64,000 nt of DNA, taken from positions 124,001 to 188,000 of the forward strand of contig NZ_BCSM01000002.1 in NCBI RefSeq assembly GCF_001570865.1. The letters run 5' to 3'. The stretch comes from Rothia kristinae NBRC 15354. Lineage in GTDB: Bacteria; Actinomycetota; Actinomycetes; Actinomycetales; Micrococcaceae. Position 1 is the stretch's first letter. Each line of letters starts with the position of its first letter. Below are positions 32,634 to 52,115 of this stretch, one piece after another. A program made the position numbers and the translations under genes. A model generated the notes under the pieces. That model saw nothing but the letters and a program-made list of their open reading frames with translations. It was not told where the DNA came from and ran no database searches.

Positions 32634-32885
32634 ATGAAAGCATTTGGATTCCTGAGCTTCGGTCATTACGGCACCGGCCCCGCGGGCAACGGGGTGGATG
32701 CCCGGCAGATGCTGCACGACGCCGTGGAGATCGCCGTCGGCGCGGAGGAGCTGGGGGTGAACGGCGCGTACTTCCGGGTTCACCACTTCGCCCCGCAGGC
32801 GGCCGCACCCATGCCGCTGCTGTCCGCGATCGCCGCGCGCACCTCCCGCATCGAGGTGGGCAACGGCGTCATCGACATGCGCTAG
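32634..32885 (+). pseudogene. 5' fragment of luciferase-like monooxygenase gene, cut by the integrated element
   Basis: First 83 residues of an LLM-class flavin-dependent oxidoreductase (FLSFGHY start, ELGVNGAYFRVHHFAPQAA near 38-56, VGNGVIDMR at the end). The frame stops at TAG (32883-32885), and that TA is the integrase crossover. The remaining 267 residues start at 52228 with YENPLHLAEEAA. Joined at TA the codons read ATG-CGC-TAC-GAG (MRYE) and give a normal 350-aa protein. The truncated frame keeps its start and probably its promoter, and would be transcribed straight into the integrase gene. Confidence 0.93.
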
Positions 32886-32927: not shown

Positions 32928-34364
32928 ATGGTCGAACTGGTAGCGCTGAGGAAGACGAACGAGGTGGCCGCGTACGTCCGCGCCTCCATGGACCGCAAGG
33001 GCGACCGCTGGACGGTCGATACGCAGCTGAGGAAGATCAGGGCGCTGGCCGAGGCCAAGGACTGGAACGTCGTCGAGGTCTACGAGGACAACGCCGTGTC
33101 GGCGACGAAGAAGCGCCGCGCTGGCACCCGCTGGGCCGAGATGCTGGACGACGCCCGCGCGGGCCGCTTCTCGATGGTGGTCGCCGTGGACATGGACCGG
33201 CTGCTGCGCAGCACGAAGGACCTCAACACCTTGATTGACCTGGGGCTGCGGGTCGTCACCGTGGACGGCGAGATCGACCTCTCGACGGCCGACGGTGAGT
33301 TCCGAGCGACGATGCTCGCGGCACTGGCCCGGTTCGAGGCCAGGCGTAAGGCGGAGCGTCAGATCAGGTCGAACGAGCGCCGACGCTTCGAGGGCATCCC
33401 GACGAGCGCCTGGAAGGCGTTCGGGTGGACGCGAGAGGGCGAGCTGATCCCGGAGGAGGCCGACGCCGTCCGGCGGGCCTTCGCCGCGTTCCTCGGCGAG
33501 CCGTCGCTGTCGATCCGGCGAATCCGCGAGGATCTGAACGGTGCCGGTCATCTCACCGCCCGCGGGTCGGAGTTCTCCGTCGATGCCGTGCGCTACCTCC
33601 TGGCGAACCCGCTCTACGCTGGCTACATCAAGCACTACGCGTCGGGCGAGCTGTACCCGGTGCAGGGCGACGCGTTCCCGCCCATCGTCGGCGAGCAAAC
33701 GTGGCGGGCCGCGGTGGCGAAGTTGGAGGACAACGTGCGAAGGTCGGCGAGGCAGGGTAACCAGCCGAAGTACCTTCTGTCCACGATCGGGCTGTGCGGG
33801 AAGTGCGGCGCGACGCTCGTCTCCGGGACGAACAGTCGCAAGCAGCCGACGTACCGCTGCGGCGAGCAGTTCCATCTCACCCGCCAGCGCGAGCCCGTCG
33901 ATGCGATGGTGACCGAGGCGGTGCTCACCCGCTTGTCCTCGGTGGATGTGCACAACCTCGTGATGCCGCAGGAGGACGATGGGCCAGATCACGAGGAGTT
34001 GCTGACGGAGCGGAACGCCCTGGTCGAGCGGGTGAAGGAGCTGAGCCCGCTGCTGCGTGACATCCATCAGCCGGTCCTGGAGATCACGGCGGCGATCAAC
34101 GACGTGAAGGCCCGCATCGATGAGATCGACGCGGAGCTGCTCGACCGTTCGGTGTCGGTGGCGGCGAAGTTGCTCGCGGACGTGGACGAGCCGGTCGGCA
34201 CCGCGGAGCGCCGCGAGGTGGTCGAGGCGAAGTGGAAGACGTTGGACGTGGACCGCCGCCGGATGCTCGTGGACGAGCTGGTGACGGTGACCATCGAGCC
34301 CATCGCGCCCGGTCATGTGAAGTTCGACCCCGACCTCATTCGTATAGAGCCGCGTCGCGACTGA
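32928..34364 (+). CDS. Large serine integrase of the element
   Basis: 478-aa large serine recombinase. The catalytic domain starts VAAYVRASMDRKGDRWTVDTQ with the nucleophile Ser about residue 20, and continues through AVDMDRLLRS and GEFRATMLAALARFEARRKAERQ. A recombinase domain (IPTSAWKAFGWTREG, about 156) and a zinc-ribbon domain (CGKCGATLVSG ... YRCGEQFH, about 287-325) follow, then a coiled-coil stretch (about 345-440) of the kind that controls direction of recombination. The start lies 43 bp inside attL and in the direction of the disrupted host gene, which may help express it. No recombination directionality factor is recognised; the small genes at 34547-35342 are candidates. Confidence 0.93.
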   Translation: MVELVALRKTNEVAAYVRASMDRKGDRWTVDTQLRKIRALAEAKDWNVVEVYEDNAVSATKKRRAGTRWAEMLDDARAGRFSMVVAVDMDRLLRSTKDLNTLIDLGLRVVTVDGEIDLSTADGEFRATMLAALARFEARRKAERQIRSNERRRFEGIPTSAWKAFGWTREGELIPEEADAVRRAFAAFLGEPSLSIRRIREDLNGAGHLTARGSEFSVDAVRYLLANPLYAGYIKHYASGELYPVQGDAFPPIVGEQTWRAAVAKLEDNVRRSARQGNQPKYLLSTIGLCGKCGATLVSGTNSRKQPTYRCGEQFHLTRQREPVDAMVTEAVLTRLSSVDVHNLVMPQEDDGPDHEELLTERNALVERVKELSPLLRDIHQPVLEITAAINDVKARIDEIDAELLDRSVSVAAKLLADVDEPVGTAERREVVEAKWKTLDVDRRRMLVDELVTVTIEPIAPGHVKFDPDLIRIEPRRD

Positions 34365-34546: not shown

Positions 34547-34759
34547 ATGTCTGTCGTTATCGACGCTCCCCGCGCATCTGCGCTGGACTGCCCTGGGCTC
34601 GACCAGGATTCGACCCCCGATCCGCAGGCTGATGGGCTCGATCCCGTCATCGCTGCCGCCCTCGCCGCCGGTCGCCGAGCTGGTGAGCGCCTGGCCCGCA
34701 TGCCGCTGACTCCGCGCCAGCGGGCCGCGGTCGCCGCCGTGATGGGTGGTGATCGCTGA
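34547..34759 (+). CDS. Small protein of unknown function, first of three before rep
   Basis: 70 aa: an Ala/Asp/Pro-rich N-terminal half, then an amphipathic basic helix (LAAGRRAGERLARMPLTPRQRAAVAAVMG). GAGGAC is about 11 bp upstream. The stop and the next start share one base (TGATG), so translation is coupled. No family recognised; the position suggests a regulator of rep or excision. Confidence 0.6.
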   Translation: MSVVIDAPRASALDCPGLDQDSTPDPQADGLDPVIAAALAAGRRAGERLARMPLTPRQRAAVAAVMGGDR

Positions 34760-35007
34760 TGAGCGCCAACTCCGCCGCCTTCGCCCACGTGAACGGCTTC
34801 CGCTGGCGTGTGGGCGACCCCACCCTCGCCGACAGCGAAGCGCACCTCTACGACCTCGGCGTGCTCCGCTCCGTGCTGGAGGAGGCCGTCGAGATGGCCG
34901 TCGCCGATGCCCGCGCCGACGGGGTGACCTGGGCCAAGATCGGCGACGCCCTCGGCGTCACGCATCAGGCCGTCATCAAGCGTTACCGCAAGGGTGGTGC
35001 CCGATGA
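34759..35007 (+). CDS. Small helix-turn-helix protein
   Basis: 82 aa. The C-terminal half (ADGVTWAKIGDALGVTHQAVIKRYRKGG) is a clear helix-turn-helix of the sigma-70-region-4/resolvase type found in many actinobacterial plasmid genes. The N-terminal half has an acidic helix. It overlaps its neighbours by 1 and 4 bp. Likely a transcription regulator of the replication/mobilization block, or the excision factor; not proven. Confidence 0.65.
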   Translation: MSANSAAFAHVNGFRWRVGDPTLADSEAHLYDLGVLRSVLEEAVEMAVADARADGVTWAKIGDALGVTHQAVIKRYRKGGAR

Positions 35008-35342
35008 ACGCCGCCGAACGCACCAGCGCCACCGCTCCCGCTGACCTGACCAGCCCGACCGATGGGCCTGGCCTGGCATCCGCCGGAGGCGGGCTGCCCG
35101 TCGTCGTGATGCCCGTCCTCATCCGTGCTCCGCACTCCAAGAGTTCTGGAAGCCTCATCCGTTCCTACGGGCGCGGCAAGGGCTTGTCGATTGCCGCGCC
35201 ATGCAACAACATGCCTGGTCAGCTGCCGGTTTCGCCTTCGCTCCACCGCGTGACCCCGCAGGATCATTTGGGGGTCAATAGGGGGTCATTTAAGGCGCCG
35301 CACGCTCCTTCCGACGTCCTGGGCGGTGGTCGCCGTAGCTAA
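35004..35342 (+). CDS. Hypothetical protein overlapping the rep start
   Basis: 112-aa frame beginning ATGA-coupled to the helix-turn-helix gene and ending 17 bp inside rep. The sequence is low in obvious structure. The second half runs across GGGGTCA repeats, so only the first 50 or so residues look protein-like. It may be a genuine small gene or just the open leader of rep. Confidence 0.35.
   Translation: MNAAERTSATAPADLTSPTDGPGLASAGGGLPVVVMPVLIRAPHSKSSGSLIRSYGRGKGLSIAAPCNNMPGQLPVSPSLHRVTPQDHLGVNRGSFKAPHAPSDVLGGGRRS
35251..35290. promoter_or_regulatory. GGGGTCA repeats before rep
   Basis: Three copies of GGGGTCA: one inverted (TGACCCC, 35251-35257) and two direct (35271-35277 and 35282-35288, the latter two within GGGGGTCAAT and GGGGGTCATT). 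They lie 36-75 bp before the rep start and next to an AT-rich TCATTTAA. They could be the Rep-binding part of the origin or a rep operator. Confidence 0.5.
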
Positions 35343-36747
35343 GCAGGAGAACAACCCGACGAGCATCGGGCTCACGCAGTACCTCGATCCGTCGTACTGG
35401 ACCTGGGCCGCCGAGGACGCGAACGGGGCCGCGCTGCTCCAGCAGGGAGCCGGGGCGATCCTCGCCTACGTGGTGCAGCGGCTCGAGGCGATCGGCTGTG
35501 AGGTCGTCGAGGCCTACGGCATCGTGCACGACAAGGACGAGCGCGAGGTCTGGAGCGACACCGAGAAGACCCTCGTGGTCGAGCCGAAGCCGGATCACCT
35601 GCACGCGGTGATCAAGTTCGCCAGCCGCGCGAAGAGCGCGCCTCTGGATCGGCTCGCGTTTGGCATCGGCGTCGAACCGCAGTACGTCGAGAAGCCCGGT
35701 CGCGGGCGGTACGCCTTCGACAACATGCTCTCGTACCTGACGCACGTGAAGTACGCGGACAAGCACCAGTACGCGCCTTCGGAGGTCGCCACGGTGCGCG
35801 GGCCGGACTACCTCGGCATCGACGCCCAGCGCCGGGAGACGTGGCTCAAGGGTCGCGCCCACGTGAAGAAGAAGGTCGTCGCCGAGAACTTCGAGGACAT
35901 GCGCGAGCGCGTGCTCCAGGGCGAGATCACGCGCGATCAGATCATGCTTACCGATGAACTGTTCGACATCTACTCGCGGCATCAGCGGGAGATCGACGAT
36001 GCCCTGTCCGCCTACGGTCAACGCCGCGCGTACCGGGCGGCGGCGAAGCTCCGCGCCGATGAGTTCTCGACGCACGTGGTATTCGTGCACGGGGATGCCG
36101 GTATCGGCAAGACCCGGTTCGCCACGGACTTCATCACCGAGGCGATCAACGCGGCGAACGCCCACGGCGAGCGGTGGCAGGTCTACCGGGCCGCCACGGG
36201 GAACCCCCTCGATGACTGGCGCGGGGAGGAAGTGCTGCTGCTCGACGATCTGCGCGCCTCGGCGATGGACGCGAACGACTGGCTGCTGCTGCTCGATCCG
36301 TACAACGCCTCCCCGGCGAAGGCGCGCTATAAGAACAAGGGCGAGGTGGCCCCGCGTCTCATCGTCATCACGGCGACGATCGAGCCCGTCGAGTTCTTCT
36401 ACTACGCCCGTCAGAAGGGCAACGTGGACGAGGCGCTGGACCAGTTCATCCGCCGCCTGGCCTCGGTCGTGAAGGTCTACCGTGCCGACGAGATCAACCG
36501 CTACCTCGTGCAGCACATCGGAAGGATCGAGCCCTACGAGTGGCATCAGTGCAGCGTTCCGGCCGCCGCGCACACGCCCGGCATGTACGGGAACGCGTAC
36601 CACCGGAACGCCGGGTCGCGGGAACTGACCTACGGTCCGGAGACCTCGGCCGACCACGACGCGGACGGCGCGGTCGCGGAGCTGCTGAGCGGGCTCGCCG
36701 TGCGGAGTCCGGACGTGCCGCTGGCACTGATCGGAGGTGCCGCATGA
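35326..36747 (+). CDS. rep: Rolling-circle replication initiator with HUH nuclease and SF3 helicase domains
   Basis: 473 aa. N-terminal HUH endonuclease region: motif 2 KPDHLHAVIKF (about 88-98) supplies the two metal-binding histidines, and MLSYLTHVKYADKHQY (about 135-150) contains candidate nicking tyrosines. The C-terminal part is a superfamily 3 helicase: Walker A HGDAGIGKTRFA (about 255-266), Walker B EVLLLDDLRA (about 302-311) and sensor-like LIVITATIEP (about 344-353). This two-domain layout is that of plasmid Reps related to CRESS-DNA virus Reps. It implies the excised circle can replicate. GTG start at 35326 with a weak ribosome site. mobC follows with ATGA overlap. Confidence 0.82.
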   Translation: MVAVAKQENNPTSIGLTQYLDPSYWTWAAEDANGAALLQQGAGAILAYVVQRLEAIGCEVVEAYGIVHDKDEREVWSDTEKTLVVEPKPDHLHAVIKFASRAKSAPLDRLAFGIGVEPQYVEKPGRGRYAFDNMLSYLTHVKYADKHQYAPSEVATVRGPDYLGIDAQRRETWLKGRAHVKKKVVAENFEDMRERVLQGEITRDQIMLTDELFDIYSRHQREIDDALSAYGQRRAYRAAAKLRADEFSTHVVFVHGDAGIGKTRFATDFITEAINAANAHGERWQVYRAATGNPLDDWRGEEVLLLDDLRASAMDANDWLLLLDPYNASPAKARYKNKGEVAPRLIVITATIEPVEFFYYARQKGNVDEALDQFIRRLASVVKVYRADEINRYLVQHIGRIEPYEWHQCSVPAAAHTPGMYGNAYHRNAGSRELTYGPETSADHDADGAVAELLSGLAVRSPDVPLALIGGAA

Positions 36748-37334
36748 GCACCGAACTGGACGCGCTCTTCCAGGGGGTCGAGGGGGCCGGAGGCCCCTCG
36801 CAAGCAGACATGGAGGACACGAGCGTCAGCGATGTGTCCGACATGCCTACTGCTTGCCACTCTGGCGTACAGGTGGAGCAGCAGACCGACTCCCAGGTGA
36901 ACACGGGTCGGGCTGATGCGGAGGCTGTGCGGCAGAGTCACGGCGGCGCGAAGCGTCGTCGTGGGGGCCGCGCGAAGCTCGATACCGACTTCGGAGAGGC
37001 CACGCTCGCGGCGCTTCGCACTCGTGCGAAGCGGCTCGGGCTGGCTCCGAGCACGTGGGTGCGGGCCGTCGTGCGCGATGCCCTCCACGCCTCTCGGAGC
37101 GAGGAGCTGGACGCCGCCGTGGCCGCGCACCTGCTCGGCGTCGAGGCGCGCGCGCAGGTGTCGGCGGACGCGCGCGAGCTGGCCGCGCAGATCCGCCCGC
37201 TGGCGATCAACGTCAACGACCTGGACCACCGAGCACGTGCCGGTGAGGCGGTGGCGCTGTCGTCGGAGGTGCCCGAGCTGATCGAGCTGCTGCGCGAGGT
37301 CCGCGCCCTGCTCGGTGATCGGACGGCGTCATGA
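36744..37334 (+). CDS. MobC-like mobilization accessory protein
   Basis: 196 aa. The N-terminal 70 residues are polar and likely disordered. A basic KRRRGGRAKLDTDF region leads into a ribbon-helix-helix-like segment (LRTRAKRLGLAPSTWVRAVVRDAL, about 90-113), then a helical C-terminus with INVNDLDHRARAGE, which resembles the N-LNQ-ar motif of MobC relaxosome proteins. It would bind oriT and help the relaxase. Coupled by overlaps to rep and to the relaxase gene. Confidence 0.75.
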   Translation: MSTELDALFQGVEGAGGPSQADMEDTSVSDVSDMPTACHSGVQVEQQTDSQVNTGRADAEAVRQSHGGAKRRRGGRAKLDTDFGEATLAALRTRAKRLGLAPSTWVRAVVRDALHASRSEELDAAVAAHLLGVEARAQVSADARELAAQIRPLAINVNDLDHRARAGEAVALSSEVPELIELLREVRALLGDRTAS

Positions 37335-38554
37335 GCACGACGCACTACAGCCCGAGCGCCAGCGCCGCCGACACGGAGCGCTATATCCGGGGCAAGGAGG
37401 ACGAGCGGGGCGTCGCGATCACGTGCGATGTGCCGGGAGGCCCCGGCGCGTTCTCGGCGCGCGCTCGGGCGCTCACGCAGAACACGACGCGCGAGGTCGA
37501 GACGCTGCACTACCGCCAGTCGTTCAGCGACGAGGAGTTCGACCCGAAGAACCCCGAACACGTGCAGCGGGTGAACGACCTGGGCTACCAGCTCGCCAAG
37601 AAGATGCACCCGGATTCCGACTGCCTCGTCGTCAGTCATGTGGATGGGCGGGGAAAGAAGCCGCACAACCATATTTTGGTTCTCAATCACAACAACCGCA
37701 CGGGAAAGGCGCTCTCGGACTATCGCACGTTCCACGACCGCAAGGCCGGGAATCAGAAGGGCGTGCAGTCGGCGAACGACGAGCTGATGCGCGAGCACGG
37801 GCTCTCGGTCGTGAAGCGGCTGGAGCACGCGCCGAAGGACTGGGAGCTGCGCCGCGAAGACTTCGCCGAGGGGTCGCTCGACCGCGAGATGGGCGACCGG
37901 ATGAGTGCGGCGCTGGCCGATCCCCGCGCGGTGGACAAGGCCGGTCTGGTCTCGGTGATCGAGGAGCAGAACCAGCAGCTCGGTGATGACGGGGATCGGG
38001 TGCCACGGATGCGGCTGCACAGCCCCGTCAGCAAGAAGGGCAAACGCGCCGGGCAGGAGACCTGGACGCTCTACATCGAGGACCGCCGCGGCGAGTCCGG
38101 GCGTGCCGAGCGCCGCAAGCGCACGAGCGCACTCTCGGCGGACTTCACCCCGGAGGGCGCGCAGGCGTTCTTCGACTACCACCAGCAGCAGAAGGAGCAG
38201 GAACATGAGCGCAGCACTCGACAGGCTGAAGCAGCAGAACGGGCCCGTGCAGTCGCCGCAACCGCTCGGCAGTCCGGAGACGATGGAGCTGTTGACCTCG
38301 ATCCTCGCCGCCGTCGAGGCGCAGAATACGAGGATCGCCACGCTGACCGAGCAGCAGAAGAAGCTCGCGGGGTTCGTGAAGGTGGACAGCGAGGAGCAGG
38401 AGAAGCAGCTCTCCGCGATCTCGCATCAGCTGACCTCAACGTCGCCGCCGCCGGAGTCGAACGAGAACAGCGAACTGCTCGCCGGAATCGCGTCCACTCT
38501 CGCGGGTATGAGCGTGAACCTCAACGGGGAGAGTCTGAAGGGCTCAGCCTCTAA
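37331..38554 (+). CDS. Relaxase (mobilization protein, HUH type)
   Basis: 407-aa relaxase that nicks oriT and leads the strand in transfer. The N-terminus has a candidate catalytic Tyr in ERYIRGKEDERG (about 16-27). The metal motif is SHVDGRGKKPHNHILVLNHN (about 101-120), with the HxD...PHNH pattern. Residues 1 to about 290 look like a normal relaxase. The last 115 residues are Arg/Ala/Glu-rich and overlap the next gene in another frame, so the true functional end may be near 38200. No linked primase or TraI helicase domain. It depends on a helper conjugation system. Confidence 0.83.
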   Translation: MSTTHYSPSASAADTERYIRGKEDERGVAITCDVPGGPGAFSARARALTQNTTREVETLHYRQSFSDEEFDPKNPEHVQRVNDLGYQLAKKMHPDSDCLVVSHVDGRGKKPHNHILVLNHNNRTGKALSDYRTFHDRKAGNQKGVQSANDELMREHGLSVVKRLEHAPKDWELRREDFAEGSLDREMGDRMSAALADPRAVDKAGLVSVIEEQNQQLGDDGDRVPRMRLHSPVSKKGKRAGQETWTLYIEDRRGESGRAERRKRTSALSADFTPEGAQAFFDYHQQQKEQEHERSTRQAEAAERARAVAATARQSGDDGAVDLDPRRRRGAEYEDRHADRAAEEARGVREGGQRGAGEAALRDLASADLNVAAAGVEREQRTARRNRVHSRGYEREPQRGESEGLSL

Positions 38555-39092
38555 GTCCGAGGCTGCCGCCAAGCATCTCGATGAGAGCCGGGCTAAGTTC
38601 GAGCGGGCCGCGAACGGTGCGCAGAAGGCCTGGCGGGAGTCGATCACCCAAGCCAGCGCCGAGGCGACGAGTGCGATCAGCACGGCCCGGGATCAGGCTG
38701 TGCAGTCGATCGAGAGGGCCGCTGCCGTCGCCGGGGCCGTGGCAACAGCCAAGATTGACGCCGCGAACGAGCGGACCGAAAAGATCATCGCCACAACGGC
38801 GAAGCTGGAGGCCCGTCAGCTTTGGTCTGTCGCCGCGTCGATGTGCCTCGCGCTGCTGCCGGTCGCAGTGATCGTCGCGGGTGTTTGGATGGCCGTCGCC
38901 GGGCTTATCACGGGCGCTCACTGGGCCCTCGACGTGGACGGGAGCGTGTGGCTCGGGATCGGTCGCTGGCTCGTGGTCTCCATGGGCCTCGCCGGGGCTG
39001 GCTACGGACTCTTCGCGTCCGTCCGCTGGGTCGCCGGTCTCGTGGAGACCTGGAAGGGCCGCGGGATGCCGAGGTGGCCCCGTTGGCGGTGA
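38205..39092 (+). CDS. Coiled-coil membrane protein overlapping the relaxase gene (MobB-like position)
   Basis: 295 aa. The first 200 residues are polar and helical with coiled-coil character (LLTSILAAVEAQNTRIATLTEQQKKLAG; later Ala/Glu/Lys repeats). Two membrane helices follow at about 207-235 and 246-270, and the tail is basic. A strong AAGGAGCAGGA ribosome site precedes ATG 38205, arguing that it is real although 350 bp overlap the relaxase. The layout recalls ColE1-type mob regions, where mobB (a membrane-associated accessory) overlaps mobA. Function by analogy only. Confidence 0.72.
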   Translation: MSAALDRLKQQNGPVQSPQPLGSPETMELLTSILAAVEAQNTRIATLTEQQKKLAGFVKVDSEEQEKQLSAISHQLTSTSPPPESNENSELLAGIASTLAGMSVNLNGESLKGSASKSEAAAKHLDESRAKFERAANGAQKAWRESITQASAEATSAISTARDQAVQSIERAAAVAGAVATAKIDAANERTEKIIATTAKLEARQLWSVAASMCLALLPVAVIVAGVWMAVAGLITGAHWALDVDGSVWLGIGRWLVVSMGLAGAGYGLFASVRWVAGLVETWKGRGMPRWPRWR

Positions 39093-39462: not shown

Positions 39463-40887
39463 TCATGCGCAGCACGAGAGCAGTGACGGGTCGGTGGTGA
39501 AGGACTTCGCGGCGATCCGGATGCCTTCGGTCATGGTCAGGTAGGGGGCCCAGGCGTCGGCGACTTCGGCGATGGTCTTGCCGAGCACGTGGACGCCTGC
39601 GGCGGCGAGTTCCCCGGCGTCCTTGGCGACGGCGGTGAGGCCGAGGATCTCGCTCGTATCGGCGTTCACGACGATCTTGATGAACCCGCGGGTGTCGCGG
39701 TTGATCACCGCCCGGGGCACATACTCCAGGGGCAGCACGCGGCAGTCGCAGCGGATCCCCGCGGCGACGACCTCCTTCTCGGTCATCCCGACCGCGCCGA
39801 TCGCCGGTCCGGTGAACGTCACCCGCGGCAGATGGGAGTAGTCGACGGACCGGTCGGCGTCGGCGAACGCGTTCTCGGCAACGAGGGTGCCGTGGTGGGC
39901 CGCGACGTAGACGAACTCCGGGTGCCCTGTCACGTCGCCCGCGGCCCAGATCCGCGGGTTCGACGACTGCAGATGGTCGGAGACGACCACCTCACCGGAG
40001 TCCCCGGTCTTCACCCCGACCGCATCGAGGTTCAAGCCGTCGGTGACGGGACGGCGTCCGAGGGCGACGAGCACCTGGTCGGCGCGGAACTCCTGCGAGC
40101 CGCCGGACACGTCCGCGGTAACCACGACCTGCCCGGTCGCCGCGTCCCGGGACACCCGGGTCGGCACCGCGCGGCGGACCACCCGGATGCCCTCGTCGGC
40201 GAACACCTCCTGCAGTGTCCGGGACACCTCCGGCTCCTCCTTCGACGCGAGCCGGGACCGCACCAGCACGGTGACCTGGGAGCCGAGGCGGGCGAACAGC
40301 TGCGCCTGCTCCAGGGCAACGTAGCCGCCGCCGAGCACCAGCATCGACTCGGGGACCTCGGTCAGGTCCATCGCCGTGGTCGAGGTCAGGTACCCGGCCT
40401 CGTCCAGGCCGTCGATCGGCGGAGCCCACGGCCGCGCACCGGTGGCGACCAGGTAGTGCTCGGCCTCGATCGTCTCGACCGCTCCGTCTGCGGCGGTGAC
40501 CTCCAACACCGGCGCGTCCGGGGTGCCCGCGAACCCGGCGTCTCCCCGCCGGACGTGCCACCCGTATGAATCGGCGACGTCGGCGTACTTCTCGCCCCGC
40601 ATCGTCTCGACCAACGCCTGCTTCCCGGCGATCAGCGCGGGCATGTCCACTGGGCCTGCCGTCGTCGCGATCCCCGGGAACCGGTCGGCGGCGTCGGCGG
40701 CGACGTGCCGTGCATCGGCGGCGGCGATGAGGGCCTTCGACGGCACGCAGCCCGTGTTCACGCAGGTGCCGCCGAGCGTGCCACGCTCGATCATCACCAC
40801 CGACTTCCCGAGCATGGTCGCGCGAATCGCGGCGGCGAACGCTCCGCCGCCCGATCCGATGATGGCGAGATCGTACTTCGTAGGCAT
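39463..40887 (-). CDS. merA: Mercuric reductase
   Basis: 474-aa flavoenzyme that reduces Hg2+ to volatile Hg0 with NADPH. FAD motif IIGSGGGAFAAA (about 9-20), redox-active CVNTGCVPSK (about 42-51), NADPH motif MLVLGGGYVALE (about 183-194), WAAGDVTGHPEF (about 312) and the C-terminal Cys pair SCCA that delivers Hg2+ are all present. There is no N-terminal heavy-metal-associated domain. GGGAG is 5-9 bp before the ATG at 40887. Divergent from merR across a dyad operator. Confidence 0.95.
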   Translation of the reverse strand: MPTKYDLAIIGSGGGAFAAAIRATMLGKSVVMIERGTLGGTCVNTGCVPSKALIAAADARHVAADAADRFPGIATTAGPVDMPALIAGKQALVETMRGEKYADVADSYGWHVRRGDAGFAGTPDAPVLEVTAADGAVETIEAEHYLVATGARPWAPPIDGLDEAGYLTSTTAMDLTEVPESMLVLGGGYVALEQAQLFARLGSQVTVLVRSRLASKEEPEVSRTLQEVFADEGIRVVRRAVPTRVSRDAATGQVVVTADVSGGSQEFRADQVLVALGRRPVTDGLNLDAVGVKTGDSGEVVVSDHLQSSNPRIWAAGDVTGHPEFVYVAAHHGTLVAENAFADADRSVDYSHLPRVTFTGPAIGAVGMTEKEVVAAGIRCDCRVLPLEYVPRAVINRDTRGFIKIVVNADTSEILGLTAVAKDAGELAAAGVHVLGKTIAEVADAWAPYLTMTEGIRIAAKSFTTDPSLLSCCA

Positions 40888-40925
40888 CGCTGCTCCCGTC
40901 AAGGCTTGGACTTCTGTTCCGTTTC

Positions 40926-40993: not shown

Positions 40994-41383
40994 ATGCGCA
41001 TCGGAGAACTCGCCGAACGCGCGGGCACCACCTCGAAGACGCTCCGGTTCTACGAAGAGCAGGGACTGCTGCCCCCGGCCGACCGGACGCCATCCGGGTA
41101 CCGCGACTACGCGCCCGACGCCGTCGCCCGGATCGACTTCGTTCACCGTGGCCAGGCCGCAGGCCTCACCCTCGCCCAGATCCACCAAATCCTCGACATC
41201 CGCGACAGCGGCCACGCGCCCTGCGAGCACGTGCGAGACCTCCTCGACGCGCGCCTGGCCGAGATCGAGCAGCAGATCGCCCAGCTCACCGCCCTGCACG
41301 GCACCATCGCCGACCTCCGGCACGACGCCGCGCACCCGGACCCCGACACATGCAGCCCAGACCAGGTCTGCCGGTACCTGTAG
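40994..41383 (+). CDS. merR: MerR-family metal-responsive regulator
   Basis: 129-aa regulator. N-terminal winged helix MRIGELAERAGTTSKTLRFYEEQGLL with the family Arg/Tyr motif, a long dimerisation helix, a Cys at about 79 (GHAPCEHV), and two C-terminal cysteines (DTCSPDQVC, about 118-126). The Cys spacing suits three-coordinate Hg2+ or a CadR/ZntR-like site; the mer neighbourhood favours mercury. Divergent from merA. Confidence 0.85.
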   Translation: MRIGELAERAGTTSKTLRFYEEQGLLPPADRTPSGYRDYAPDAVARIDFVHRGQAAGLTLAQIHQILDIRDSGHAPCEHVRDLLDARLAEIEQQIAQLTALHGTIADLRHDAAHPDPDTCSPDQVCRYL

Positions 41384-41559
41384 AGGGACGCGGACCGAGA
41401 AAACGAGAGCCATAAAACGAACATGCGCTACGAGCACTTAGCTTCATGACGCTCGTGTCGTCGAAGTGGCACAGCAGCCGCTGACACGCCACGCCAGGCG
41501 TGGCCGGGAGACCTCCCGAGGAGTAGGTGATCAGCCTGCTCACGGACGAGGAGGACCCC

Positions 41560-42105
41560 ATGACGACCAGCGCCCGCATCATCCGCCACACCGAGCCCCG
41601 CGCGTGGCTTGGCTGTCTCACGTGTTATTCAGAAGCCGATCTCGTCGGCAGGTGGTACGACGCCGAGGACTGCGACGAGGTCACCCCTGCCCAGCTGCAC
41701 GGTCACGCGACCGACCACGAAGAACTCTGGGTGATGGACCACGAGGGCATCCCTGTCACCGGCGAGATGGACCCCATGACCGCGGCCCAGTGGGGTCGCG
41801 TCCTCACCTCGGTGCCGGAGCACCAGCAGGAAGCCCTCTTCGCCTGGGTCCGGTCCGGCAGCTATGTCGCCGAGGGTGAGGGCGACTTCCCGTCGCTCGA
41901 GGCGTTCGAGGACGTGTACAAGGGCGAGTGGTGCTCATGACGCGAGTACGCCGACCACATGCTTGAGGAGGGCGGCCTCCTTGAGGGTGTCTCCGATGAG
42001 GCCCGCCGCTACATCGACTACGACCAGTGGGCACGTGACCTGCTCATGGACTACACGGTCGAGGACGCCGAGGACGGCGGCGTCATCGTCTTCCGCAACC
42101 TCTGA
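41560..42105 (+). pseudogene. ardA: ArdA antirestriction protein with an in-frame stop
   Basis: DNA-mimic protein that blocks type I restriction during transfer. Acidic N-terminal part with LVGRWYDAEDCDE and EELWVMDHEGIP. After GEWCS an in-frame TGA (41938-41940, codon 127) interrupts the gene, and the same frame continues REYADHMLEEGG ... YIDYDQWARDLLMDYTV to TGA at 42103. Without the stop it would be about 181 aa, a normal ArdA length. A single-base nonsense change, or readthrough, would explain it. GAGGAGG precedes the ATG at 41560. Confidence 0.82.
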
Positions 42106-42106
42106 T

Positions 42107-42149
42107 CTATAGGCGCGTTTACTGCACTGTCACGTAAACGCGCCTATAG
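42107..42149. repeat. Perfect 16-bp inverted repeat after ardA
   Basis: CTATAGGCGCGTTTAC (42107-42122) and its exact complement (42134-42149) around an 11-nt spacer, TGCACTGTCAC. It begins 2 bp after the ardA stop. No U-tract, and the composition is less GC-rich than the local terminators. It may be a terminator or a recombination/replication site. Confidence 0.65.
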
Positions 42150-42188
42150 CATGTCTGACAGATCCCTGCCTCCCATAGGAGCCCCACC

Positions 42189-42527
42189 ATGCGACGCCAC
42201 CTGATCACCGCCACCACGCTCGCCATCGCCGCCACCGCCCTGCTCGCCGGCTGCAGCGGCAACAACCTCGAGGGCACCTACCTCGACGCCAAGGAGGGGC
42301 GCTACATGCTGATCCTCGGCGAGGACGGCACCTGCGGCCACCAGGAGCAGACCAACCCGCATGCCGAGATCGACGACGACTGCTCCTGGAGCCGCAACGG
42401 CGACGAGCTGACCTTCGTCGGCCTGATGAGCTACAACGTCTACGGCACGGTCAACGACGACGGCTCGATCACCATCCCGCACCAGAACCACGTCACCTCG
42501 AAGCTGCTGCAGAAGCAGGAGAGCTGA
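42189..42527 (+). CDS. Small lipoprotein
   Basis: 112 aa. Lipoprotein signal: MRRHLITATTLAIAATALLAGC with lipobox LLAGC (Cys about 22). The mature part is acidic, with GTYLDAKEGRYMLILGEDGTC and CSWSRNGDELTFVG, resembling small secreted proteins that fold as a beta-rich domain; one disulfide (about residues 59-59+20) is possible. Function unknown. A classic U-tailed terminator follows. Confidence 0.7.
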   Translation: MRRHLITATTLAIAATALLAGCSGNNLEGTYLDAKEGRYMLILGEDGTCGHQEQTNPHAEIDDDCSWSRNGDELTFVGLMSYNVYGTVNDDGSITIPHQNHVTSKLLQKQES

Positions 42528-42538
42528 GCGCGATCACG

Positions 42539-42577
42539 AGACCCCCGGGGAGCATCCGCTCCTCGGGGGTCTTTTTC
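42539..42577 (+). terminator. Rho-independent terminator after the lipoprotein gene
   Basis: AGACCCCCGGGGAGC and GCTCCTCGGGGGTCT form the stem, followed by TTTTTCTT. This is the only hairpin with a true U-tract noticed in the window and it lies in the mobile element. Confidence 0.88.
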
Positions 42578-42616
42578 TTGATCTCCGTGAATGCAGGGGT
42601 CAAGGGATAATGAAGC

Positions 42617-43465
42617 ATGCGCATTAGTGATTTCTTCCAGGAGCCAGCAGGGACTGGCAACCCCTGGGATTCATCGAAGCCGGTTCTCAACGCCGACCTG
42701 ATCACCCAGCTCGCACAGGGCACCGCCCACGACCCGAACCCACTGGAGACAGCGCTCGAGCTCACCAGGCTCGTCCGAGCAGAGTACGAGTCCTACGGCA
42801 CCGAGAAGTCGCACCTGCGGACCGACGAGGACGAGGCGAGGGCCGCGCTCAGGGCGCTCCGCATGCTCCTCAAGCGAAGAGGCATCGTCTTCGACCCTCC
42901 GTGGCGCGACTTCTCGTCCTTCCACAGTCACTGGATCGCTGAAGGTGCCTATGGGGATTGGCAAGCTCGGCGCGACATCATCGAGAAGGTGTTCCGGCCG
43001 ATCCAAGATCAGCTCGAGGAGGCAGAGGAACAGCAGTTCATGGGCGAACTGACCGAAGGCATCTCGCCGCACGGCGATCTCGGCTGGACTGACGTCTACG
43101 ATCACATCTCACAGCTGCGGCATCGCTTCAGGTCAGCCTCCACGCCTGTCGACTACAAGGACGTGGGCAACCGCTGCGTCGGCGTCCTCGAGGCGCTCAG
43201 CGCCCATGTCTACGACCCTGAGGTGCACTGCCCACCGGGACTCTCAGAGCCTCCGGTGGACAAGACCGACATCCGCATCGGCGCGTACATCGACCACCGT
43301 TTGCCCGGCAAGTCCAATGAGGAGCTGCGGGGGCTGACCAAGAAGGCATCGGCTCTCGCCCACAAGATGAAGCACTCACCGAAGGCCGACCGGACCACGA
43401 CCGGCATCACCGCGGATGCCGTGATTCTGTTGGCGAACATCTTGCGTCGACTCGAGGACGGCTGA
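42617..43465 (+). CDS. Uncharacterised soluble protein of the element
   Basis: 282 aa, acidic, mostly helical, with no signal or membrane segment. It starts MRISDFFQEPAGTGNPWD, has a central WQARRDIIEKVFRPIQDQLEE helix and ends with a helical KKASALAHKMKHSP ... ADAVILLANILRRL domain. I do not recognise the family. Its place among element cargo, standing alone after a terminator, makes a defence or stress role possible, but nothing in the sequence shows it. Confidence 0.7.
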   Translation: MRISDFFQEPAGTGNPWDSSKPVLNADLITQLAQGTAHDPNPLETALELTRLVRAEYESYGTEKSHLRTDEDEARAALRALRMLLKRRGIVFDPPWRDFSSFHSHWIAEGAYGDWQARRDIIEKVFRPIQDQLEEAEEQQFMGELTEGISPHGDLGWTDVYDHISQLRHRFRSASTPVDYKDVGNRCVGVLEALSAHVYDPEVHCPPGLSEPPVDKTDIRIGAYIDHRLPGKSNEELRGLTKKASALAHKMKHSPKADRTTTGITADAVILLANILRRLEDG

Positions 43466-43685
43466 GGCCCCGCACGCAGAACAGGGCGCCCGTCGATCCT
43501 CCTTCGTCGGATCACCGGGCATCGGGAGGTGTGGTTGTGGCTTCGTTCGCTTGGTGGCGGGGTTTTTGCAGCGCTCTGTGGCGGTCTTGTTGCCGCGATC
43601 ACGCAGGACTGGCTGCAGGTAGGTGTCGCGGTCTGAACCGAGAGGGGTGCGCACGGTCGGGGCCGTTTGGATCGCTGCCGCTACG
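43466..43685. other. Gap between the unknown gene and cadD
   Basis: 220 bp between convergent genes. A 92-codon minus-strand open frame crosses it but lacks a ribosome site and coding character. I see no hairpin or other signal. Confidence 0.35.
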
Positions 43686-44288
43686 TCAGAGTCCGAAGGC
43701 TCCGCCGCTGACGAGGATCACGATGCCGAGGCCGATGAGAACGATGGGGAAGAGGATGTGCTCCCAGCGTTCGAGAACTTCGGCGATCGGGGGGCGGGTG
43801 GCGACGAACTTTGCCAGGGCCACCAGGACCGCGACGAGCGCGAGGAAGACGATGCAGTAGGCGACTACTGCGAGAGGTTCCACGCTGAGGAAGACAGGGG
43901 TGTAGACGCCGATGTTGTCGCCGCCGTTGGCAAGGGTGACGCCTGCGACTGTCCACACGCCGACCTTCTTGCCGGCAACCTTGGCCTCGTCGTCATCGTC
44001 GTCATCGTCTCCGCGCCAGGCCTGCCATGCGGCCCAGAGGCCGAGGCCCAGAGGGATGAGACCGAAGTACGGGATGGCTGCCGAGGGCAGGAATGCTCCG
44101 GCACCGATGGTCACCAGGACCGCGGCACCGAGGATGCCGGCGAATCCGAGGTACTGGCCGGCCAGAATGCGGGCGGTAGTGCCGCGCTGGCCTGCCCCTC
44201 GCGCGAAGAAGAGGGAGAGCACGATGATGTCGTCGATGTTGGTCGCTGCGAACAGGCCCATCGCCTGCAAGACCGAGGTGAGGATCAT
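43686..44288 (-). CDS. cadD: CadD-family cadmium resistance transporter
   Basis: 200-aa membrane protein with about five to six helices. The family start MILTSVLQAMGLFAATNIDDIIVLSLFF and the repeat-related LANGGDNIGVYTPVF are clear. An Asp-rich cytoplasmic loop (eight acidic residues near 93-100) lies between the halves. It confers Cd2+ export or sequestration in relatives. The start overlaps the stop of cmtR by 4 bp, giving a cmtR-cadD operon. Confidence 0.88.
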   Translation of the reverse strand: MILTSVLQAMGLFAATNIDDIIVLSLFFARGAGQRGTTARILAGQYLGFAGILGAAVLVTIGAGAFLPSAAIPYFGLIPLGLGLWAAWQAWRGDDDDDDDEAKVAGKKVGVWTVAGVTLANGGDNIGVYTPVFLSVEPLAVVAYCIVFLALVAVLVALAKFVATRPPIAEVLERWEHILFPIVLIGLGIVILVSGGAFGL

Positions 44289-44644
44289 GCGCCCTCCCCA
44301 GCTGCGTCGCATCCGGGAAGCGAGCAGGCGGGATCGATGCACGGGGCGTCTTCGTCCACTGCCAGGGTGGCATCGACCAGTGCCGTCAGCGCCTGCGCCA
44401 GGTGCGAATCGGCGATCTCATATCGTGTCCGACGACCCTCGGGCTCGGAGACGACGATCCCGCAATCGCGCAGGCATGCCAGGTGGTTGGACACGTTCGG
44501 GCGTGTCAGGTCCAGATCTCGGGCCAGTTCCGCCGGGTAAGCGGGATGGTCGAGCAGGGTCAAGATGATCCGGGATCGAGTGGGGTCGGCCAGTGCACGA
44601 CCCAGGCGGTTCATCACGTCGAGACGCGAAGCAATAGTCAGCAT
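44285..44644 (-). CDS. cmtR: CmtR-type ArsR-family cadmium/lead sensor
   Basis: 119-aa repressor. GRALADPTRSRIILTLLDHPAYP leads to the winged helix DLTRPNVSNHLACLRDCG. The three metal ligands of mycobacterial CmtR are conserved: the two cysteines of CLRDC (about 57 and 61) and the Cys in DEDAPC (about 102). Metal binding should release it from the operator upstream and turn on cadD. Two more cysteines lie in the short tail. The start follows the -10 TATAGT by only 7 bp, so the mRNA is probably leaderless. Confidence 0.9.
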   Translation of the reverse strand: MLTIASRLDVMNRLGRALADPTRSRIILTLLDHPAYPAELARDLDLTRPNVSNHLACLRDCGIVVSEPEGRRTRYEIADSHLAQALTALVDATLAVDEDAPCIDPACSLPGCDAAGEGA

Positions 44645-44671
44645 GCAGTGAACTATACAGCGCGCAGTGAA
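44645..44671 (-). promoter_or_regulatory. cmtR promoter with direct-repeat operator
   Basis: GCAGTGAA occurs at 44645-44652 and 44664-44671, a period of 19 bp, flanking the minus-strand -10 TATAGT (complement of 44652-44657). CmtR is the likely ligand. Confidence 0.55.
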
Positions 44672-44689
44672 TACTCGGTCGCAGGCGTC

Positions 44690-44857
44690 AAGGGCAAACT
44701 CAAAGGCAAGAAGCCCAAGCTCTCGCCCTCTCAGCGCAAGCACCTGCTGACGTTGCACACGGCCGGCGAACACACCCAAGCCGAGCTCGCCGAGCTGTTC
44801 AGCGTCTCCCGCACCACCATCTACCGCGAGCTGCGCCGCACCACGGCCGACACCTGA
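44690..44857 (+). pseudogene. C-terminal remnant of a serine resolvase
   Basis: About 55 codons reading KGKLKGKKPKLSPSQRKHLL ... AELAELFSVSRTTIYRELRR, the HTH tail of a Tn3-type resolvase/invertase. There is no catalytic domain upstream: the sequence before it is the cmtR promoter. So cmtR-cadD joined an older resolvase by deletion. A second, intact resolvase follows. Confidence 0.7.
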
Positions 44858-45053
44858 CCGCGCCTGCACCGCCACTGAGCAATCACAGAAACCCGCCACC
44901 AAGCCATCACATCCACAGTGTGGTCACCTACCAGCTGAGCACCTGTCCAGCGAGGTGTACCCGTTGAACACGGGGCGAGTCCCTGACTACGATCTGTTCA
45001 CCAGGGTCGCATTTTGATAGGATGGACACATCTGCACAGGGGGTCTAGACGAT

Positions 45054-45629
45054 ATGAACACCACAGGTAAGCTCGTCGGCTACGCGCGGGTCAGCTCGGC
45101 CGACCAGCACCTCGACCGGCAGCTCGAGGTGCTCAGCCGGGCCGACAAGATCTTCACGGAGAAGATCTCCGGCAGCAGTCGGGAGCGCCCCGAGCTGACC
45201 CGGATGATCGAGTACCTCCGCGAGGGCGACACCGTGCTCGTCAAGAGCCCCGACCGCCTCGCCCGGTCGACCACCGACCTGCTCGCCCTCGTCGAGCAAC
45301 TGCGCGCCAAGGACGTCCAGATCGAGTTCATCGACAATCCTGCGCTGAACACCGATACGCCGCAGGGAGAGTTCATGCTCACCGTGCTGGCTGCGATGGC
45401 ACAGCTCGAGAGGGCGACCATCCGAGAGCGCCAGGCCGAGGGCATCGCCATCGCCAAGAAGAAGGGCACCTATGCCAGGACGGTGCGCCTGAGCCCCGAG
45501 CAGATCACTGAGGCCCGCGAGCGGGTCGAGGCGGGCGTCGCCCATGCTCGGGTGGCCAGGGAGCTGGGTGTGTCACGCACGACCCTCTACGCCGCCCTGA
45601 GCGGCTCCGGTGCCTACGCGACCACCTGA
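45054..45629 (+). CDS. Serine resolvase/invertase
   Basis: 191-aa small serine recombinase. Catalytic VGYARVSSADQHLDRQ (Ser about 15), KSPDRLARSTTDLL, GEFMLTVLAAMAQLERATIRERQAEG, and the C-terminal HTH ARVARELGVSRTTLYAAL are all intact. The region upstream contains TTTTGATAGGATGGACA near 45014-45030, a likely part of a resolution site. No partner transposase is in the element, so it is probably a leftover of a transposon that carried metal genes, or it keeps the circular form monomeric. Confidence 0.88.
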   Translation: MNTTGKLVGYARVSSADQHLDRQLEVLSRADKIFTEKISGSSRERPELTRMIEYLREGDTVLVKSPDRLARSTTDLLALVEQLRAKDVQIEFIDNPALNTDTPQGEFMLTVLAAMAQLERATIRERQAEGIAIAKKKGTYARTVRLSPEQITEARERVEAGVAHARVARELGVSRTTLYAALSGSGAYATT

Positions 45630-45646
45630 GCCCCCACGACACACAG

Positions 45647-45677
45647 AAGCGCCCCGGACATCTCGTCCGGGGCGCTT
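45647..45677. terminator. Bidirectional terminator after the resolvase
   Basis: AAGCGCCCCGGA (45647-45658) and its exact complement TCCGGGGCGCTT (45666-45677), 7-nt loop, between convergent genes. Confidence 0.75.
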
Positions 45678-45706
45678 GCCGTGTGGGAGGTAACGGAGTG
45701 CGGGTC

Positions 45707-46189
45707 TCACGCAGACTGCCTCCAGTCGCTGTCGTCCTCAGGGACCTCAGGGATGAACCCGGCCTCGTCGGCCGGCGACGGCTTCACGCCCTCGTCCCGG
45801 CGCACATGCTCGACATCGCGGTCGCTCTTGTCCTTCGTGACCTTCACGCCCGTCTTGGAGCCGACCCCCTTGATGAGGTTGCTGATGAGCGTCGGGGCGA
45901 CGATCACCGAGGCGACGAGCGCCGAGATGCCGCCTGCGATCCAGACGTTCTGGAAGATCCCCATCGCCTGCGTCAGCAGCAGCCGCACGACCATGAAGCC
46001 GACCGTGTACAGCACGGCCATGAGCGCGAGCCGCCAGATGGGCGAGCGGGCCTGGAACGCCTGGAACTCCCGCCATGCCGTGCGCAGCGCACCCTTCGTC
46101 TCGCGGGAGTCGGGGCCGTCGTCCTCCGGCAGCACCAGCAGCGCTGCCTTGAGCATGAGGCCGACGAACCGGAACCCTCGCGGGAGCAT
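45707..46189 (-). CDS. Membrane protein of unknown function
   Basis: 160 aa with two hydrophobic helices: about 51-71 and 80-102. The charged C-terminal tail is rich in Lys and Asp (KTGVKVTKDKSDRDVEH). Related hypothetical proteins occur on actinobacterial mobile elements. It is followed (46 bp) on the same strand by arsR transcription from the other side; stop-to-start relations give no clear operon. Confidence 0.6.
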   Translation of the reverse strand: MLPRGFRFVGLMLKAALLVLPEDDGPDSRETKGALRTAWREFQAFQARSPIWRLALMAVLYTVGFMVVRLLLTQAMGIFQNVWIAGGISALVASVIVAPTLISNLIKGVGSKTGVKVTKDKSDRDVEHVRRDEGVKPSPADEAGFIPEVPEDDSDWRQSA

Positions 46190-46234
46190 CGTGGCACCGC
46201 TACGCCGCCCTGCGCCGCTGAACCCCGAATCTCC

Positions 46235-46618
46235 TCAGCAGGAGCCCGCGGGAGTGTCAGTGCTCAGTGTCTGCGGGTCGAGCGCGGCCGAGAGCATCCC
46301 CAGGATCTCGGGAACGACCGCGTAGTAGGCCCACCTGCCGCGCTGCTCACGCGTCACCAGGCCGGCGTCGACGAGCTGCTTCATGTGATGCGAGACCGTG
46401 GGCTGGGAGAGGCCGACAGGCTCGGTCAGATCGCACACACACGCCTCCCCGCCGGACTGCGCAGTGATCATCGACAACAGCCGCACACGGGTCGGATCAC
46501 CGAGCGCCTTGAACAACCGCGCCAACTGCTGCGCATCCTCGACCGCGAGCACCCCACCCGTGACGGGGGCGCAACATCCTCCCGTGTCGGTCGCGACCAG
46601 CGGCAGTGAGATCGGCAT
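46235..46618 (-). CDS. arsR: ArsR arsenic-responsive repressor
   Basis: 127-aa winged-helix repressor. LARLFKALGDPTRVRLLSMI, EACVCDLTEPVGLSQPTVSHHMKQL (metal-site CVCD in helix 4) and a Cys pair CCAPVTGG near the N-terminus are visible. The CVCDL motif is the As(III) site of classic ArsR. The start at 46618 is chosen; two upstream in-frame ATGs would add residues across the operator. Divergent from arsM; likely autoregulated. Confidence 0.88.
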   Translation of the reverse strand: MPISLPLVATDTGGCCAPVTGGVLAVEDAQQLARLFKALGDPTRVRLLSMITAQSGGEACVCDLTEPVGLSQPTVSHHMKQLVDAGLVTREQRGRWAYYAVVPEILGMLSAALDPQTLSTDTPAGSC

Positions 46619-46640
46619 GCCCTCGACCCTACGCCATGCA

Positions 46641-46682
46641 TTGACAACTGTCGATGCATCGACGAGCATCAATATGTTGTCG
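46641..46682. promoter_or_regulatory. arsR/arsM divergent promoter region
   Basis: Contains a perfect 12-bp palindrome TCGATGCATCGA (46651-46662) just after TTGACA (46641-46646), and inverted ACAAC/GTTGT copies on either side (46644-46648 and 46676-46680 region). This is the likely ArsR operator. Confidence 0.5.
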
Positions 46683-46710
46683 GGGCGCCCCGCGGGAAAT
46701 GGAGCAGGCA

Positions 46711-47544
46711 ATGAGCGAGAACGAGAACACCGAGCTGCGCGAACAAGTCCGCGCCCGCTACGCCCAGGCCGCGACCGCGGTCACCACCGGCACCCGCAAC
46801 GCTGATCTCCTGGTCGAAGAGGCGTCTGTCTCTTCGTGCTGTTCCAGCACCTCCGCCACAGAGGGATCGAATGAGGCGGCCGACGACTCGTACTGCGCTC
46901 CGACCGAGCGGAGCTTCGGCGCGGGTCTCTACGACGAGGCGACCGCCGCCGGACTCCCATTGGAGGCGGTCGAGGCCAGCTTGGGCTGTGGCAATCCCAC
47001 GGCGGTCGCTGAGCTGCACGAGGGTGAGCGGGTGCTCGACCTCGGCTCCGGTGGCGGCATCGATGTGCTGCTCTCCGCACGCCGTGTCGGACCGACCGGG
47101 TTCGCCTACGGCGTGGACATGACCGACGAAATGCTCGCCCTGGCCGAGAAGAACAAGATCGAGGCCGGGGCGGAGAACGTCGAGTTCCTCAAGGGCACCA
47201 TCGAGGACATACCGCTTTCGGACGGGTCGGTGGATGTGGTGATCTCCAACTGCGTCATCAACCTCTCCTCCGACAAGCCCGCCGTCCTTGCCGAGATGTT
47301 CCGCGTCCTCGCGCCGGGTGGCCGTATCGGGGTCTCCGATGTCGTCGCCGAAGACCGCCTCACCCCCGAAGAGCGTGCTGACCGCGGTTCCTACGTTGGG
47401 TGCATCGCCGGAGCCCTGTCGAAGACCGAGTCCCTCGACGGCCTCGCCAAGGTGGGGTTCACGGGTGCGAGCGTGGAGTTCACGCACGAGGCCGCGGACG
47501 GGATGCACGCCGCGATCATCCGCGCCACTAAGCCTACGAACTAA
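46711..47544 (+). CDS. arsM: Arsenite S-adenosylmethionine methyltransferase
   Basis: 277-aa enzyme that methylates As(III). SAM motif VLDLGSGGGIDVLLSARRVG, then YGVDMTDEMLALAEKN, ISNCVINLSSDKPAVLAE and SYVGCIAGALSK are hallmark ArsM segments. Arsenic-binding cysteines: SCC (about 41-43), C in DDSYC, C in GCGNP, and NCVIN. Family members produce methyl- and dimethyl-arsenicals. The ATG at 46711 has GGAG 6-10 bp upstream. First gene of arsM-acr3-arsC-arsO. Confidence 0.92.
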   Translation: MSENENTELREQVRARYAQAATAVTTGTRNADLLVEEASVSSCCSSTSATEGSNEAADDSYCAPTERSFGAGLYDEATAAGLPLEAVEASLGCGNPTAVAELHEGERVLDLGSGGGIDVLLSARRVGPTGFAYGVDMTDEMLALAEKNKIEAGAENVEFLKGTIEDIPLSDGSVDVVISNCVINLSSDKPAVLAEMFRVLAPGGRIGVSDVVAEDRLTPEERADRGSYVGCIAGALSKTESLDGLAKVGFTGASVEFTHEAADGMHAAIIRATKPTN

Positions 47545-47582
47545 CCGCATACCCCGAGCTAACGAGGAGACTGAGCAGCACG

Positions 47583-48701: not shown

Positions 48702-49123
48702 CCACCGATACCACTCCGACGGTGTTGTTCGTCTGCGTCCACAACGCCGGGCGCTCCCAGATAGCCGCCGCCTTCCTAACCCACCACGCCGCGGGCCGCA
48801 TCGCGGTCCGCTCCGCTGGGTCGGAGCCCGCCCACCAGCTCAACCCGGCCGTGGTCGAGGCCATGCGCGAGGTCGACATCGACATCACGGCCGAGCGTCC
48901 GAAGCTGCTGACCCCCGACGCGGTGCAGACCGCTGATGTGGTCATCACGATGGGGTGCGGCGATACCTGCCCGTTTCTCCCCGGCAAGCGCTACGAGGAC
49001 TGGCAGCTCGACGACCCCGCAGGGCTTGGGCTCGAGGAAGTGCGCACTATCCGGAACGAGATCGAGACCCGCGTCCGCATCCTCATCGCCGAACTGCTCG
49101 GTCCTCAGGAGACCGATGAGTGA
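48698..49123 (+). CDS. arsC: Arsenate reductase, low-molecular-weight phosphatase fold
   Basis: 141-aa enzyme. The P-loop VCVHNAGRSQIA (nucleophile Cys about 14) is the PTP signature; CGDTCPFLPGKRYEDWQLDDP carries the second and third thiols of the thioredoxin- or mycothiol-coupled relay. It reduces As(V) to As(III) for export by Acr3. Overlaps acr3 by 4 bp and arsO by 8 bp. Part of its 3' end is duplicated as a remnant at 51830. Confidence 0.92.
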   Translation: MTTDTTPTVLFVCVHNAGRSQIAAAFLTHHAAGRIAVRSAGSEPAHQLNPAVVEAMREVDIDITAERPKLLTPDAVQTADVVITMGCGDTCPFLPGKRYEDWQLDDPAGLGLEEVRTIRNEIETRVRILIAELLGPQETDE

Positions 49124-50184: not shown

Positions 50185-50188
50185 TAGA

Positions 50189-50222
50189 TAAGCCGTCGTT
50201 TGTGTCATAAGCAGTCGCTTGT
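50189..50222 (+). promoter_or_regulatory. Direct repeats upstream of the second arsR
   Basis: TAAGCCGTCGTTTGT (50189-50203) and TAAGCAGTCGCTTGT (50208-50222), two mismatches, period 19 bp. Located 13 bp before the arsR2 start, so the ArsR2 operator is the natural reading. Confidence 0.55.
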
Positions 50223-50234
50223 TAGTGTGGAGGT

Positions 50235-51498: not shown

Positions 51499-51543
51499 TC
51501 CCGACAACTGTCCCCGTAAACCCACCACAGGAAAGGAACCACC

Positions 51544-51711: not shown

Positions 51712-51753
51712 TCCTTCCCACGGAACTTCGATGCTGTGTCATAGGAACAGCCA

Positions 51754-51782: not shown

Positions 51783-51829
51783 CCGTGTGCGCAATCCAAC
51801 CCTTCGACCATGCCACGCTGCTCGCCACC

Positions 51830-52100: not shown

Positions 52101-52115
52101 ATTCCGTCATCTCCA

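Follow-up and report, generated by a model that had tools for sequence, protein, structure and literature searches.

A 64,000-nucleotide stretch of the Rothia kristinae NBRC 15354 genome (contig NZ_BCSM01000002.1, positions 124,001 to 188,000; hereafter the window) carries a gene for a Rep-type initiator beside genes for an integrase and a relaxase. This arrangement raises the question of whether the integrated element also replicates as an excised circle, as a preliminary description of this DNA had proposed. According to a 2017 review, the replication of excised integrative mobilizable elements (IMEs) had never been studied (PMC5704250). Our analysis indicates that positions 32883-41430 probably constitute such an IME, essentially a rolling-circle plasmid (origin, rep, mobC-mobA-mobB) combined with a serine integrase, which would replicate as an excised circle.

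Rep combines an HUH endonuclease with an SF3 helicase

The rep open reading frame comprises 497 codons from stop to stop and is present as a single intact copy in the genome. Its start had been placed at 35251, where the frame contains a TGA stop codon; the frame opens with the GTG at 35326 and ends at 36747 (plus strand), yielding a protein of 473 amino acids of the YLxH type. Apart from this coordinate, the protein agrees with the preliminary description, as motifs, two Pfam models and Foldseek concur on an HUH endonuclease with an SF3 helicase. The HLH motif is located at residues 91-93 (DNA 35596-35604), motif III (YLTH) at residues 137-140 (35734-35745) with Y149 as the second tyrosine, the P-loop (Walker A) GDAGIGKT at residues 256-263 (36091-36114) and the Walker B motif LLLDD at residues 304-308 (36235-36249). 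In an alignment of nine Reps with identities down to 26%, H91, H93, Y137, H140, K146, Y149, G256, G261, K262, D307 and D308 were invariant. The Pfam models Rep_OBD (residues 60-162; 7.7e-8) and RNA_helicase (SF3-type; residues 252-350; 1.4e-8) both scored above their gathering cut-offs.

The AF2 model of Rep was of moderate confidence (pLDDT 74, pTM 0.49), and Foldseek matched it with a probability of 1.00 both to the origin-binding domain of pMV158 RepB and, for the helicase, to the Vientovirus (CRESS) Rep hexamer. A sequence-profile search with Rep likewise retrieved CRESS-type Rep helicases. The two domains are secure; how the model arranges them relative to each other is not reliable. The identification of Rep itself is far beyond chance.

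Rep resembles the YLxH plasmid Reps

The YLxH motif is the mark of the pCRESS4-8 supergroup, also called the pCPa-like cluster (PMC6668415). To judge from its features, the Rep fits this group of plasmid Reps, as it exhibits the invariant HLH of the HUH domain, the YLTH motif, and Walker A and B motifs within the Pfam helicase match, and is encoded by an element integrated at one and the same TA site in all 30 cases that could be read. The domain layout and the plasmid/CRESS-type family suggested earlier are thus corroborated by Pfam, Foldseek and the YLxH motif. According to PMC6668415, 97.5% of the Reps outside groups 7 and 9 reside in site-specifically integrated elements, none of which has viral structural genes, and the YLxH pCRESS Reps lie at the base of a tree that includes CRESS-virus Reps. 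Integrated pCRESS plasmids are therein an already known kind (Kazlauskas et al. 2019, PMC6668415).

The plasmid relatives of the Rep comprise pCPa, other phytoplasma plasmids, Staphylococcus plasmids and 3,978-bp Lactococcus plasmids. In our Rep tree, which has long branches and few references and leaves out virus Reps, it grouped with the pCPa-like and Lactococcus Reps. All pCRESS5 Reps share >90% identity (PMC8780604), from which pCRESS5 as its subgroup would be a guess only. A plasmid of the pE194/pMV158 type was rejected, because this type needs a Rep without a helicase and the Pfam helicase domain is present here.

As the helicase half of Rep resembles CRESS-virus Reps, the element might also be viewed as an integrated CRESS-DNA-like virus. 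We give this practically no credence, since no structural PHROG was detected among the six backbone proteins scanned and the mobilization genes as well as the YLxH signature point to plasmids.

The element has the gene content of an integrative mobilizable element

The element encodes, in this order, a serine integrase, two small ORFs, rep, mobC-like, mobA, mobB-like, merA and a MerR-type regulator. The integrase and the relaxase named in the preliminary description could both be recognized: the large serine integrase (32928..34364, plus strand; 478 aa) by Pfam Resolvase (2.4e-23), Recombinase (1.4e-11) and phrog_95 integrase (2.9e-87), and the MobA relaxase (37331..38554, plus strand; 407 aa) by Pfam Relaxase PF03432 (2.5e-13), with a 32% match to the relaxase of the Lactococcus plasmid pUC073G, which is typed MOBP. 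Between integrase and rep lie a small ORF without family match, whose position is conserved in relatives (34547..34759, plus strand; 70 aa), and a small HTH DNA-binding protein (34759..35007, plus strand; 82 aa; phrog_686 3.6e-8, weak HTH_23), a candidate regulator or excision factor.

Downstream of rep, the MobC-like protein (36744..37334, plus strand; 196 aa) has no Pfam match and is conserved in relatives; its putative role as a relaxosome accessory protein derives from its position, which corresponds to that of mobC in pUC073G. ATGA overlaps connect rep with the mobC-like gene and the latter with mobA. The MobB-like ORF (38205..39092, plus strand; 295 aa) covers the 3' end of mobA in a different reading frame and likewise has no family match; almost all relatives retain it at 54-62% or more. 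The cargo consists of the mercury(II) reductase MerA (39463..40902, minus strand; TIGR02053 5.8e-164, above cut-off) and a MerR-family metal-responsive regulator (40994..41383, plus strand; CadR/ZntR/MerR models, all below cut-offs).

As no conjugation-pore gene was apparent among the ORFs of 32883-41430, we read the element as mobilizable and not conjugative; with its own integrase and relaxase it has the composition of a canonical IME. The rep-mobC-mobA order in common with the Lactococcus plasmid suggests either that the element arose from a mobilizable rolling-circle plasmid by gain of an integrase or, conversely, that the plasmid arose through loss of one. Directly 3' of the integrase gene we observed an 11-bp inverted repeat (CGAGTCGACTC/GAGTCGACTCG; 34369-34404), followed by a conserved non-coding block (34420-34545), both candidates for an oriT or control site.

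Integration occurs at one TA in either orientation

The element interrupts a gene which we take to be that of a probable LLM-class flavin-dependent oxidoreductase. The amino-terminal part of this target gene (32634..32882, plus strand) reads in frame from MKAFGFLSFGHYG through GVIDMR to the junction, and a TA core with its carboxy-terminal part occupies 52228..53031 (plus strand); related elements likewise lie between homologous gene halves. The gene is split at one conserved place, with TA at both ends in all 30 readable elements; in the window the left core, on the integrase side, is 32883..32884 and the right core is 41429..41430, where the elements of loci L003 and L004 end.

A segment of 10.8 kb (41431..52227), with TA on both sides, separates the right end of the element (41429) from the remaining target gene (52228). 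It is absent from the otherwise identical L003 and L004 and is probably a second accreted segment. Its genes include cadmium (CmtR, CadD) and arsenic (ArsR, ArsM, ACR3) resistance determinants, a small serine recombinase and others. Plasmids of other actinobacteria carry copies of the cadmium cassette with 97-99% identity.

Analysis of the junctions of loci L002-L044 revealed 15 elements in the same and 19 in the opposite orientation relative to the target gene (p 0.61 against 1:1). Even groups of elements that are ≥98.5% identical contained both orientations. The reconstructed attP arms showed fair symmetry, at a mean of 15 of 22 positions, whereas the attB arms were not symmetric (6.4 of 22). 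With its palindromic TA core and mixed orientations, the element provides a natural example of serine-integrase insertion that is blind to orientation. We found no report of a natural element with two-way integration in a search with partial literature coverage. Two copies in Actinomyces oris, L017 (7770-16987) and L025 (7451-16980), lie next to an intact target gene with its carboxy-terminal half duplicated; their integrase is truncated (from residue 337), and they are apparently immobilised.

The element is patchily distributed across actinobacteria

Strict peptide patterns applied to 84,980 species genomes yielded 43 loci, with Reps mostly 92-99% identical, in about 20 actinobacterial genera. 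Representing several orders, these include Brevibacterium, Kocuria, Actinomyces, Arachnia, Gordonia, Corynebacterium and Nakamurella. Brevibacterium permense and Kocuria palustris carry the 8.5 kb of 32883-41430 at ~100% identity. The distribution is patchy, since among 396 genomes drawn evenly from the phylum only three gave any match, of which only the window's own was close. Our literature search returned no paper naming the element.

A conserved hairpin and iterons precede rep

When the sequences preceding rep were aligned, a group of 11-bp repeats just 5' of the gene stood out as a strongly conserved island. It consists of two tandem iterons, GGGGGTCAATA and GGGGGTCATTT (35270..35291, plus strand), with a third, degenerate copy at 35261-35269; these candidate Rep-binding sites adopt clade-specific forms at the same location in relatives. 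A second conserved block further upstream contains a perfect hairpin (35170..35200, plus strand) with the arms GGCGCGGCAA and TTGCCGCGCC and the loop GGGCTTGTCGA, a candidate origin (dso). The hairpin is intact in 40 of the 43 loci. In divergent relatives compensatory changes alter both stem arms (GGTGCGGCAA/TTGCCGCACC; GGCGCGGCGAA/TTCGCCGCGCC) and the loop retains GGGCTTGT. As the single-strand folding energy of the 111-base region was unremarkable (z -0.79), the assignment is based on conservation and not on energy.

A hairpin with the same loop was located 5' of rep in seven of nine autonomous plasmids tested, from phytoplasma to Lactococcus, with unrelated stem sequences. The distance to rep was ~250-280 bases in the Lactococcus, Staphylococcus (GGGCTCGT) and phytoplasma plasmids, and pCPa exhibited the near-variant loop GGGCTGTC ~410 bases upstream of rep. 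The chance level, determined from shuffled plasmids, was two such hairpins in 6.9 Mb. Because the loop motif had been noticed in the window's element family before it was searched in plasmids, the plasmid hairpins represent an independent test. The hairpin or a near variant also accompanies two more Reps of 25-32% identity from sampled genomes; L047 and L060, which encode a related Rep, showed no such hairpin in the stretch searched. A full-text search with partial literature coverage gave no earlier report of the loop motif, and we could not find this conserved origin loop described before.

The same hairpin, flank and iterons recur in a 3,450-bp IMG/VR contig that is circular (terminal repeat of 127 bp) and encodes a related Rep. 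This circle, L059 (IMG/VR 3300027374_000443), codes for the Rep and a probable MobV-type relaxase (judged by eye), has no evident capsid gene and looks like a plasmid despite its place in a virus collection. Two further IMG/VR contigs, L049 and L050, were set aside, as they fitted the loop pattern but had no hairpin of the rep type.

The hairpin could alternatively belong to transfer. For 73 streptococcal IMEs, relaxases of the rolling-circle initiator type have been proposed, 15 of them combining PF01719 with a helicase (PMC5704250). By analogy, Rep might be a non-canonical relaxase or transfer factor and the hairpin its oriT, and the location of rep in one operon with the mob genes is in line with this. 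The presence of a canonical relaxase gene in the element weakens such a role, and the hairpin is kept in L034, L039 and L043, where no mob gene is recognisable near rep, as well as in phytoplasma plasmids without an annotated mob gene. Replication is therefore favoured over transfer, an oriT is disfavoured, and we consider a relaxase function of Rep unlikely.

The excised circle is predicted to replicate

Selection on rep is purifying, with a dN/dS of about 0.05-0.08 at a dS of about 0.3. No copy of the backbone was present among 72,556 plasmid records, and a pattern search of 37 host assemblies for the excised (attP) junction matched integrated junctions only; the reverse-strand matches in the L006 and L009 genomes are right junctions of inverted copies. 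The small contigs L012, L018, L021 and L040 were dismissed as free circles for want of a terminal repeat. The metagenome contig L018 starts exactly at the TA core (1-10), which could reflect a mixed occupied and excised population or a mere assembly break.

Among the integrated copies, rep is broken by a nonsense codon in L033 (10001-11386) and by a frameshift in L042 (10001-11418), and the origin hairpin is missing in L017, so that the element can persist without replication. Together with the missing free form, these copies would suit a Rep that is merely a relic in an element that is only integrated and mobilized, its circle being non-replicating. The low dN/dS and the hairpin preserved in nearly all loci indicate sustained selection, and we regard a relic as quite improbable.

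A replicating circle is thus a well-supported inference. The catalytic residues, the conserved hairpin and iterons, the autonomous relatives with the same origin, the purifying selection, the gene order of pUC073G, and the intact integrase and attachment sites all support it. Of the extrachromosomal phase first proposed, the replicative machinery has gained a conserved origin and circular relatives, whereas the free form itself did not appear in plasmid records or host assemblies; the case now appears much stronger than motifs alone allowed.

In the mechanism we propose, the integrase would excise the element as a circle, joining its ends at the palindromic TA. Rep would bind the iterons and thereby help to expose the hairpin, and its HUH domain, probably via Y137, would nick within the GGGCTTGT loop or at CTACG at the hairpin foot and stay covalently attached to the 5' end. 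The SF3 domain would then unwind the circle for copying by a host polymerase, and the circle would be maintained until MobA and MobC mobilize it through the conjugation pore of another element, or until it reintegrates.

Implications and comparison with known systems

The question of IME replication becomes directly testable in this element family, for which an initiator can be named, a candidate nick site is at hand and hosts are numerous. Furthermore, the conserved loop provides a candidate origin sequence for the YLxH pCRESS Reps, and the element carries metal-resistance genes across distant actinobacteria. Rep and the element belong to an already known kind; what we could not find described are the conserved loop of the origin and integration in either orientation. 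Two further ideas are advanced jointly, with slightly more doubt than confidence: that the Reps of the whole YLxH pCRESS group, across at least three bacterial phyla, nick at the GGGCTTGT hairpin, which would be the bacterial equivalent of the nonanucleotide stem-loop of CRESS viruses, and that an initiator with its own helicase and a palindromic TA core used in either orientation let the element move nearly unchanged across actinobacterial orders.

The nuclease half of Rep shares its fold with pMV158 RepB (Foldseek), but RepB lacks the helicase domain, and its nick site is TACTACG/ACC (PMC8056398) as opposed to the GGGCTTGT loop of the element family. The streptococcal PF01719-helicase IMEs (PMC5704250) also combine integration and mobilizability with a Rep of this kind; they are devoid of a canonical relaxase, with Rep proposed in that function, whereas the element described here has a MobA/VirD2-type relaxase. 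Its nearly even orientations compare with those of the A118 integrase, which in the laboratory yields about half of each product on a symmetric core (PMC3556126). With the pCRESS4-8 plasmids it has in common the HUH and SF3 Rep, the YLxH motif III, site-specific integration and the lack of a capsid gene, while the origin hairpin and two-way integration are absent from the main text of PMC6668415. Finally, Lactococcus pUC073G (CP068704) is an autonomous circle of 3,978 bp that carries no annotated integrase gene. It shares the rep-mobC-mobA order with the element, its Rep is 37-41% identical to that of the element, and a hairpin 5' of its rep displays the same loop, GGGCTTGTCGA.
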